A stretch of DNA of 64,000 nt from Betaproteobacteria bacterium (GTDB taxonomy: Bacteria; Pseudomonadota; Gammaproteobacteria; Burkholderiales; Burkholderiaceae_D). The stretch is from positions 1-64,000 of the forward strand of contig JANYFL010000038.1 in NCBI GenBank assembly GCA_025362735.1, in the 5' to 3' direction. The notes beneath the pieces are model-generated. The model was not told where the DNA came from. It did no database searches and worked only from the letters and a program-made list of their open reading frames with translations. Shown here one piece after another: positions 1 through 46,654 of this stretch (position 1 is its first letter; the number at the start of each line of letters is the position of its first letter). The position numbers and the translations under genes were made by a program.

Positions 1-1
1 G

Positions 2-133
2 TACAACTATCGCGGTGTTTCCCGTTATCATTTCCCCATGTATCTTAAGGAAATCGAATACCGCTACAACCACCGACATGACAACGTCTTTAAGCTGTTC
101 CTGAAACTCTTCTTTGGTTACGTTTCGCCCTAA
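2..133 (+). pseudogene. IS1595-like (ISXO2-type) transposase, C-terminal end only
   Basis: The reading frame enters from the left window edge and stops at TAA 131-133, giving 43 residues. The segments FPMYLKEIEYRYNHR and LFLKLFFGY match the end of the ISXO2-like transposase domain, where the RYN(H/N)R signature sits shortly before the C-terminus. Only the end is visible, so whether the element is intact upstream of the window cannot be told. The stop abuts the stop of the convergent truncated hicA, and I see no terminal inverted repeat after it. Assignment is from remembered family motifs. It could be another DDE transposase of the same superfamily. Confidence 0.7.
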
Positions 134-271
134 TTACCAATCTTTTTTTGGATGCGGCACAGTGACAACGCCCGGTCTTCCCGGTTTGGCTAATTGGTGG
201 TGACTGCTCTTTACCCGAATCACTTCGAAGCCAGCGTCTTTCAGGACTTGCACCAGTTTTGCGCTATTCAT
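134..271 (-). pseudogene. hicA: HicA-like mRNA interferase toxin, 3'-truncated
   Basis: Forty-five codons from ATG 271 encode a protein starting MNSAKLVQVLKDAGF, then RVKSSHHQLAKPG and VTVPHPKKDW. This is the HicA toxin fold, a small double-stranded-RNA-binding-like mRNA interferase, with its conserved active-site histidine region SSHH. Intact HicA proteins are about 58-65 residues and continue after PHPKK(D/E) with a final helix. That helix is missing, and the stop directly abuts the end of the convergent transposase gene. No hicB antitoxin follows. It is probably a remnant cut by the mobile element, but a short active form cannot be excluded. A palindrome just upstream looks like the HicB operator. 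Confidence 0.7.
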
Positions 272-290
272 GATGTGTATGATACACATC
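272..290. promoter_or_regulatory. palindromic operator upstream of hicA
   Basis: A perfect 8-bp inverted repeat, GATGTGTA-TGA-TACACATC, lies immediately before the hicA start codon. HicB antitoxins repress their own operon by binding such palindromes. Its preservation next to a broken hicA suggests recent decay, or use by a HicB encoded elsewhere. Confidence 0.55.
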
Positions 291-319
291 AAACTGTGAC
301 GGGCAAGGGGTCGGTTGGA

Positions 320-417
320 AATGGGCAAAAAAAAGCGCGGCATCAGCCGCGCTTCGATACGAAGGCTTTTCAGCCTTCGCTTGCGCCCAAAAGGAGGAGG
401 AGGAAACGGGCGCAACA
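320..417 (-). ncRNA. candidate structured small RNA with CCUCCUCCUCC loop
   Basis: Read on the minus strand there are three consecutive stems. H1 is 8 bp (TTGCGCCC at 415-408 paired with GGGCGCAA at 388-381) with a loop containing CCTCCTCCTCC. H2 is 8 bp (379-360) closed by a GAAA tetraloop. H3 is 8 bp (353-334) followed by a U-run, a Rho-independent terminator. A loop rich in CCUCC resembles the anti-Shine-Dalgarno loops of proteobacterial CcsR-type RNAs. The 5' end is unknown and I see no convincing promoter. The alternative is the 3' end of a decayed gene: one minus-strand frame here is open for about 75 codons but has no start and no family I recognise. Confidence 0.45.
327..353 (-). terminator. 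Rho-independent terminator (minus strand)
   Basis: AGCGCGGC-ATCA-GCCGCGCT is a perfect 8-bp stem, and the A-run before it on the plus strand becomes a U-run on the minus transcript. Confidence 0.8.
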
Positions 418-588
418 AACTGGTCAGCCAGATTGATCGCGTATTCATTGCATCGAGCAAACTGCTGTTGCAGTGCAATATAGACGGCCTTGGGGTTTCA
501 TGCAAATACTGAATTCTGATTGTAAGCATTAGAATTTTCGATAGTCTTTGAACCCGGTTACAAATGCCCAGTCCCGAAGGCCCTTGAA

Positions 589-1092
589 CTAGCCAAATAA
601 ACCGGTTTCCTGACCACGTTCGAGGGCAAGCAGGCATTTTTTGCGTTCCAGCCCACCTCCATAACCGGTCAGGCTGCCATTGGCACCGATGACCCGGTGA
701 CAGGGAACGATGATCGAAACGGGGTTGCGGCCGTTGGCCAAGCCAACGGCACGCACCGCTTTGGGATTGTTGATGCGCTGCGCCAATTCACCGTAACTGA
801 CGGTCTGTCCGTAGGGAATACCCATGAGTCCATTCCATACCGTTTGTTGAAACGGCGTGCCTTGCAAATCGAGCGTAACGTCAAAGCGAGTGAGACGTGC
901 GGCAAAGTATTGTTCGAGTTGTTGGATGACATCTGCGAATGGAGCCGGGTCAGAGACCCATTCGGGATCGATACCAGTCGGGCCATGCTTGCCATTCTGC
1001 ATATGCAAACCGCTCAGGCCACGCGCGGTCGCCATCAACAGCAGTTCGCCGATGGGGCTGGGTATGCGGGTAGTGTAGGTCTTCACGATCAA
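589..1092 (-). CDS. ogt: methylated-DNA--protein-cysteine S-methyltransferase
   Basis: A 167-residue DNA repair protein that removes alkyl groups from O6-alkylguanine or O4-alkylthymine by suicidal transfer to its own cysteine. The active-site motif PCHRV has Cys131. It is preceded by the helix-turn-helix region (GTPFQQTVWNGLMGIPYGQTVSYGELA split across residues 78-104) and followed by the GYGGG-ER-K-LL signature of the family. Length is normal for Ogt/AGT without an Ada regulatory domain. Gene symbol ogt is preferred over ada because no N-terminal zinc/transcription domain is present. It stands alone, with no partner gene in the same orientation. Confidence 0.93.
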   Translation of the reverse strand: MIVKTYTTRIPSPIGELLLMATARGLSGLHMQNGKHGPTGIDPEWVSDPAPFADVIQQLEQYFAARLTRFDVTLDLQGTPFQQTVWNGLMGIPYGQTVSYGELAQRINNPKAVRAVGLANGRNPVSIIVPCHRVIGANGSLTGYGGGLERKKCLLALERGQETGLFG

Positions 1093-1269
1093 TCTAAACG
1101 GCGAAGTACATGGGATTGGATGGCCAGTTGAGCCAATAATATTGAACCAGGCTCCATCCTTTGCTCAGGATTCTATACGCCACAACAATCCGATTTAGTT
1201 ATCCTCAGATTTTCAAATAAGCCTCGCGTATCATCCGGGCTGCGCATCATTCTTGCTACAAGTTTCCGT

Positions 1270-1800
1270 ATGACTAAAATCCAAATCCCCACCGACCTTC
1301 CCAGCAAAACCTCTGGCCGCAAAATTGCCGTGCGCCAATCCGGTATTCACGGCAAAGGCGTCTACGCCTTGCAGCCGCTCAAAAAGGGCGAACGCATCAT
1401 CGAATACAAGGGCGAAGTCATCGACTGGCCCGAAGCCCTGCGCCGCCACCCGCACGACCCCAGCGACCCCAATCACACTTTCTACTTCACCCTCGACGAC
1501 GAGTTCGTGATCGATGGCAAGGTCAACGGCAATTCCGCGCGCTGGATCAATCACGCTTGCGACGCCAACTGCGAAGCCGATCTGGTTGAAGTCGGCGGTC
1601 GCACCCGCGTCTTCATCGAAGCCCGACGCAACATCCAGCCTGGCGAAGAATTGTTCTACGACTACGGCCTCGTGCTCGACGAGAAGCACACCAAAAAAAT
1701 CAAGAAAGATTTCGCCTGCTGGTGCGGAACCAAGAAGTGTCGCGGCACCATGCTGGCTCCGCAGGAAAAGAAAAAAAAGAAAAAGGGCAAGAAGAAGTAA
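1270..1800 (+). CDS. SET-domain protein lysine methyltransferase-like protein with post-SET cysteines
   Basis: A 176-residue protein consisting almost only of a SET domain. Visible motifs are HGKGVYA (27-33), RWINHACDANC (91-101, the NHxCxxNC SAM/pseudoknot motif), ELFYDYG (127-133, with the catalytic tyrosine) and a post-SET CWC....C cluster (Cys150, 152, 157) that with a SET-core cysteine can bind zinc. The last 12 residues are almost all lysine. In eukaryotes these enzymes methylate histone lysines; in bacteria the known or suspected targets are nucleoid-associated, ribosomal or secreted host-directed proteins. I infer an intracellular target because there is no signal peptide. The neighbours are unrelated. 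Confidence 0.85.
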   Translation: MTKIQIPTDLPSKTSGRKIAVRQSGIHGKGVYALQPLKKGERIIEYKGEVIDWPEALRRHPHDPSDPNHTFYFTLDDEFVIDGKVNGNSARWINHACDANCEADLVEVGGRTRVFIEARRNIQPGEELFYDYGLVLDEKHTKKIKKDFACWCGTKKCRGTMLAPQEKKKKKKGKKK

Positions 1801-30690: not shown

Positions 30691-30924
30691 AATCTGAAAG
30701 CTTTACACAGAGTTCACAGAGATGAAGGGCATTTACTTAAGCACCGTCATCCCCGCGAAGGCGGGGATCCAGTGTCTTTATCCACCTGAAGTCGCTGGAT
30801 TCCCGCCTTCGCGGGAATGACAAAATATGGAAGACACGCCTTAAGTAAGTGCCATTCGCCACAGAGATATCTTCCGATTTTCTCTGTGAAACTCCGAGTC
30901 TCTGTGCCTCTGTGTTGAGAGGTT
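30691..30924. repeat. CACAGAG element with a GTCATCCC element nested inside
   Basis: Outer ends: TTACACAGAGTTCACAGAG and CTCTGTGCCTCTGTGTTGAG. Between them GGCATTTACTTAAG (30728-30741) and CTTAAGTAAGTGCC (30840-30853) form an inner perfect 14-bp inverted repeat apart from one T/G mismatch, and inside that a second family, GTCATCCCCGCGAAGGCGGGG...CGCGGGAATGAC (30746-30831). This is the clearest three-level nesting in the window. It fills most of the 342-bp argS-xerC gap. Confidence 0.75.
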
Positions 30925-46492: not shown

Positions 46493-46537
46493 GCACTCAT
46501 TGACGCGGTTTCCCAAGCTTGAGTTAAAATCACTGCC

Positions 46538-46624
46538 TGCCAAGGAGCGTTGCGATGGATCTTCGATCCACCAGGCTTGGCTGATGCGGACGTTCAGTCC
46601 CATTCATTTGGAACCGCGCTCGCC
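46538..46624 (+). promoter_or_regulatory. S-adenosylhomocysteine (SAH) riboswitch
   Basis: GCCAAG (46539-46544) pairs with CTTGGC (46576-46581), enclosing a TGGAT-CTTCG-ATCCA hairpin (46556-46570), and GAGCG (46545-46549) pairs with CGCTC (46617-46621) as the H-type pseudoknot. This is the architecture and the core sequence (AAGGAGCGTTGCGATGG) of the SAH riboswitch, which activates ahcY when SAH accumulates. It lies 31 bp before the ahcY ATG. The core -10 TTAAAAT is just upstream at 46524-46530. Confidence 0.88.
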
Positions 46625-46654
46625 CACTTTTATTTTTCTTAAAGGAGGCGCGAG

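Follow-up and report, generated by a model that had tools for sequence, protein, structure and literature searches.

The minus strand at positions 415–332 of the analysed stretch of DNA (64,000 nucleotides; hereafter the window) folds into three consecutive stems of 9, 9 and 10 pairs, the first of which presents an anti-Shine–Dalgarno (aSD) loop and the last of which is an intrinsic terminator. We propose with moderate confidence that this stretch encodes a small trans-acting aSD RNA that would repress mRNAs via their ribosome-binding sites. With its expression predicted, it is probably a lineage-specific aSD-loop sRNA and another example of a known functional kind.

Fold of the candidate RNA and exposure of its loop

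Hairpin 1 (381–415, minus strand) comprises, in the computed fold, a 9-bp stem in which 415–407 pairs with 389–381 through eight Watson–Crick pairs and one G–U pair (arms UUGCGCCCG/UGGGCGCAA), and a 17-nt loop at 406–390 that reads UUUCCUCCUCCUCCUUU. Hairpin 2 (359–380, minus strand) abuts it with a gap of 0 nt; its stem joins 380–372 to 367–359 by 8 perfect pairs, 9 in the computed fold, beneath a GAAA tetraloop. Three nucleotides further on, hairpin 3 (327–355, minus strand) joins 355–346 to 341–332 around the loop UGAU, with 9 perfect pairs that the fold extends to 10, and is followed by eight U (334–327), with a predicted 3′ end at about 327. Refolding bears out what the earlier note had read from the letters, namely three near-adjacent perfect stems (8–10 pairs, depending on the closing G–U pairs), the second closed by GAAA and the third a terminator (9–10 pairs) with a U-run. 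No terminator results when these letters are read on the plus strand, and hairpin 3 is the sole terminator-like site in window positions 1–1300.

The three-hairpin arrangement is real and above chance, as judged by its stability against shuffles, by simulation counts and by loop exposure. Its minimum free energy is −49.1 kcal/mol compared with −29.4 ± 3.8 kcal/mol for dinucleotide shuffles (z = −5.3), none of the 200 shuffles being as stable. Inverted repeats of 8 bp (loop 3–20) number 37 across the window compared with 19.4 in simulations, and three tandem 8-bp stems within 100 nt occurred in none of 40 Markov-simulated windows. The aSD loop remains unpaired with a probability of at least 0.997 (99.7%) in all transcript lengths tried, from 98 to 434 nt. 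A further perfect inverted-repeat cluster, with three 8-bp stems in about 140 nt, is found at window positions 30748–30888, and its long hairpin bears a chance likeness to miRNA models.

Within the loop of hairpin 1, and in none of the other two hairpins, lies the aSD motif CCUCCUCCUCC (403–393), which is complementary to GGAGG Shine–Dalgarno (SD) sequences, as had been claimed for the first loop. Predicted duplexes of the loop with SD sequences range from −10 to −16 kcal/mol, and those with genuine start sites of window genes reach down to −17 kcal/mol, the best realistic start region being TTAAAGGAGGCGCGAGATG. An exposed aSD, a stable fold and an intrinsic terminator, the structural features by which an aSD trans-acting sRNA is judged, are all present.

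The arrangement is also rare in the genome. The 11-nt aSD run CCTCCTCCTCC has two copies in the 3.0-Mb genome, and no comparable loop surrounds the second one, on contig C16. The shorter CTCCTCC occurs 125 times, not above a reversed control pattern. We surveyed the context of 100 of these 125 sites for two features together: the motif sitting in a hairpin loop closed by 6 bp or more, and a terminator no further than 130 nt away. Among the sites scored, only three loci show this combination: the window RNA, an RF02278 RNA on contig C38 and an anti-hemB RNA on contig C21, the latter two belonging to established sRNA families. That the window RNA has its loop-plus-terminator arrangement in common with established sRNAs is the strongest support for its sharing their functional kind. 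The fold, its terminator, the exposure of the aSD loop and the rarity of the arrangement in the genome are direct observations.

Relation to known aSD RNA families

The covariance search against Rfam that the earlier note had suggested recovered no family at its cut-off in the region. Since none of the four families RF02837, RF02278, ar14 and CcsR reaches its cut-off, the window RNA is, on sequence grounds, not a member of any of them. It probably works like ar14 and anti-hemB, by analogy of design, rather than belonging to either. The genome itself carries one clear member each of RF02837, which adjoins hemB at C21:57789–57872 (56.7 bits), and of RF02278, at C38:1754–1818 (72.2 bits). Its complement of RNA families suggests that the bacterium is probably one of the Burkholderiales. 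Both families are widespread in relatives (42 of 60 pass the RF02837 cut-off, 27 of 40 that of RF02278), and the earlier statement that no equivalent had been described in this group does not stand: anti-hemB has the exact hairpin order, and RF02278 is a second published aSD family. RF02278 gives up to 26 matches per genome in relatives, some of them close together.

The anti-hemB RNAs of Burkholderiales (ncS04, RF02837; 80–105 nt) likewise consist of an aSD-loop hairpin, an abutting second hairpin and a terminator, and carry their aSD, UUCUCCUCCCUGA, in loop 1 as the window RNA does. Their first stem, however, has a near-invariant CCCGC/GCGGG and their terminator loop usually contains CUCCCCUUU, both of which are missing from the window RNA; they adjoin hemB, whereas the window RNA is flanked by ogt and a hicA fragment. 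A search of window positions 310–440 against Rfam gave no RF02837 match at E ≤ 10 (cut-off 49.5 bits). With our own anti-hemB model, built from 30 members, the window RNA obtains the best score in the 64-kb window, yet only 12.2 bits (E = 0.07). The RNA ncS04 binds Hfq, as cited in PMC5688073. Directly after anti-hemB on contig C21, at L205:340–401, a near-threshold match to the Xanthomonas sRNA sX9 (42.1 bits, cut-off 44) is possibly a dispersed repeat.

RF02278 (Betaproteobacteria toxic small RNA, or double-hairpin; ncS27/bdhR1, Bordetella S17) resembles the window RNA in its CU-rich loop CTCCTCCTTT and its terminator. It differs in having two hairpins, with no middle one, and a second aSD in a single-stranded 5′ end. 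According to a published proposal, its CU-rich aSD stretches mask the ribosome-binding sites of mRNAs (PMC5688073, PMC11722255). The RF02278 model gives the window RNA 18.2 bits against a cut-off of 50, in a match that skips hairpin 1.

The ar14 RNAs (RF02344; NfeR1 of Sinorhizobium), of which NfeR1 has been shown to silence mRNAs through SD pairing (PMC10746234), also form three hairpins with variable stem sequences and the aSD CCUCCUCCC in unpaired regions. That motif stands in all three of their hairpins (PMC10746234), whereas the window RNA has it in the first only, and ar14 is alphaproteobacterial, the window RNA coming from a different bacterial class. The whole ar14 model aligns with the window RNA and scores 27.2 bits (cut-off 58.8), equal to the 26.8 bits that it gives a true anti-hemB RNA. 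This sub-threshold match is not a strong one and should not be overread, because a hairpin-rich control stretch of the window yields equally small E-values for animal and plant miRNA families.

The earlier note had called the candidate a trans-acting RNA of the CUCCUCC-loop type, like CcsR. The architecture and the exposed loop match the type; the kinship is not supported. CcsR1–4 of Rhodobacter (RF02791, which Rfam names after its CCUCCUCCC motif) have a CUCCUCC-type motif in common with the window RNA, and searching Rfam with the window RNA gives no CcsR1 match at E values of 10 or less (cut-off 65.3 bits). Rhodobacter makes the CcsRs by processing the transcript of a DUF1127 (ccaF1) operon, which has an RpoHI/RpoHII promoter (PMC10253847), whereas no DUF1127 gene adjoins the window RNA.

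Searched with a single-sequence covariance model of the window RNA, the 294 family genomes yielded no homologue. Among the matches inspected, the best, at 28–34 bits, have mainly the terminator and adjoining U-run in common with it, and the CCUCCUCC loop is in none of the matches listed. DNA searches of 60 relatives, plasmids and phages produced nothing beyond matches of 20–33 nt, and a structural DNA pattern gave 20 matches in viral contigs, a number compatible with chance. There is accordingly no sign of selection, no homologue having been found in the 294 family genomes, plasmids or phages. If functional, the RNA is apparently restricted, as far as these sequence comparisons indicate, to the source lineage among the genomes searched, which include no other member of the source genus.

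Genomic setting and competing readings

Upstream of the RNA and on the same strand lies a gene (589–1092, minus strand) that we take, from the sequence motif VPCHRVIG of its product, to be ogt-like, encoding the DNA-repair enzyme methylated-DNA–protein-cysteine methyltransferase; tblastn retrieved relatives of this product. In GTDB genomes the nearest of them reach no more than 64% identity and belong for the most part to unrelated phyla, which leaves ogt-anchored synteny uninformative. The ogt stop codon is 173 nt upstream of hairpin 1 and no other terminator-like site intervenes before hairpin 3, which an ogt mRNA would share.

Downstream of the RNA is a 45-residue hicA toxin-gene fragment ending in PHPKKDW (135–272, minus strand; Pfam PF07927, 46.7 bits). 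A 21-nt operator-like palindrome, TGATGTGTATCATACACATCA (271–291), is intact at its start, and the fragment is broken off where the tail of an IS1595-type transposase (weak matches) sets in, at the contig end.

A possible sigma-70-type promoter read from the sequence (477–505, minus strand) consists of TTGCAT (505–500), a 17-nt spacer and TATATT (482–477), and a promoter scan returned the identical −10 with an overlapping −35 (9 of 12 matches). This candidate is weak, because chance alone would produce about 1.2 sites of this quality per 1300 bases. A transcript starting from it would measure about 143 nt (469–327). The −10/start region overlaps TTGCACTGCAACA (466–478, minus strand), a sequence similar to the operator consensus described for PhaR in Ralstonia eutropha, and a related TTGCGTTGCAACA lies upstream of this genome's RF02278 RNA. 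The genome encodes PhaR (C57:6743–6922), and the operator-like pattern is about twofold enriched, with 33 matches compared with 14 for a reversed control. A putative PhaR operator at the window RNA is only a lead, since the neighbours of the motif sites, named from their sequences as ubiD, a PTS IIA-like gene and an APC permease, are not clearly PHB genes. Several RF02278 RNAs (L018, L021, L022, L027) have a palindrome-like motif, TTGCGNNGCANCA, ahead of their −10, which resembles the PhaR operator consensus YTKNTGCRNYGCANMAR and might tie RF02278 sRNAs to PHB status.

This setting supplies the main rival of a trans-acting sRNA, according to which the hairpins form the end of the ogt transcription unit: the terminator is real, the one or two additional hairpins either shield the 3′ end or keep the hicA promoter insulated, and the C/U-rich loop is fortuitous, with no regulation in trans. 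The position of hairpin 3 as the sole terminator-like site downstream of ogt and just ahead of the hicA palindrome and start, together with the want of conserved relatives of the RNA, fits such an arrangement. A plain terminator, however, could do without hairpins 1 and 2, the 11-nt aSD run appears only twice in 3 Mb, and among the 100 of 125 sites scored only two genuine aSD sRNAs share an exposed loop before a terminator, and we consider this reading somewhat unlikely.

The earlier note had also raised the tail of a decayed gene, on which reading the minus-strand frame reading ...IALQQQFARCNEYAINLADQFVAPVSSSSFWAQAKAEKPSYRSAADAALFF (497–327), which is open and runs through the hairpins, was once coding and the stems arose inside it or are incidental. 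We regard this as possible, do not favour it and would call it distinctly unlikely. The part of the suggestion that stands is the weakly gene-like codon use of this one frame. Its codon score over 327–497 is 0.17, inside the 5–95% span of real gene segments of the window (0.00 to 0.48) and higher than the 95% level of off-frame segments (−0.24), and any open frame scoring at least 0.15 arises in just 2.6% of simulated sequences; the area is moreover disturbed, with the truncated hicA and IS1595. What speaks against it is that the codon signal is stronger upstream (419–497, 0.30) than across the hairpins (0.03), that the frame has no ATG, GTG or TTG start ahead of the RNA, that the protein reading matches no Pfam family and no convincing NCBIfam family, and that three perfect tandem stems are unexpected in a decaying gene. 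A conserved protein-coding frame, named beforehand as grounds for abandoning the RNA, did not emerge either: tblastn in 60 genomes, plasmids and viral contigs gave no convincing relative. The best tblastn match (E = 0.005, in one genome) has an internal stop codon and is no better than chance would give across 60 genomes.

It is highly improbable, in our judgement, that the stretch is a cis-acting element or a diverged member of a catalogued family, such as a rearranged RF02278 or anti-hemB copy. The loop string that it has in common with this genome's RF02278 RNA, the TTGCNNTGCAACA motif upstream of both and the RF02278 score of 18 bits would suit a diverged copy; against this, RF02278 has no middle hairpin and its match passes over the very hairpin that carries the aSD, at 18 versus 50 bits, while the nearly invariant anti-hemB stem CCCGC...GCGGG is missing and RF02837 is unlisted at E ≤ 10.

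Proposed mode of action

We infer that the RNA is transcribed, binds Hfq and represses targets. As a trans-acting aSD sRNA, it would be a minus-strand RNA of about 100–145 nt, made from its own promoter or cut out of the 3′ end of the ogt transcript. Hairpin 2 and the terminator would stabilise it, and its U-tail may bind Hfq. Through the C/U-rich loop of hairpin 1, the RNA would base-pair with GGAGG sequences in the ribosome-binding sites of several mRNAs, and this pairing would block ribosome entry and so repress translation. NfeR1 has been demonstrated to repress in this way (PMC10746234), and the same mode of repression has been proposed for the RF02278 and anti-hemB RNAs (PMC5688073).

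A bolder version, which we think rather unlikely, holds that this aSD sRNA is confined to its lineage and came into being only recently in the ogt 3′ region, perhaps from a decayed gene, independently of anti-hemB and RF02278, and that it represents convergent design within one genome, possibly with a PhaR-type operator. If expressed, the trans-acting sRNA would bring to three the aSD regulators of a small genome with a clear member of both known Burkholderiales aSD families. It would then also offer a test case for the new birth of aSD RNAs, having the same order of loop, hairpin and terminator without shared sequence.

Elsewhere in the window, positions 46536–46628 (plus strand) match the SAH riboswitch (RF01057) at 58 bits.
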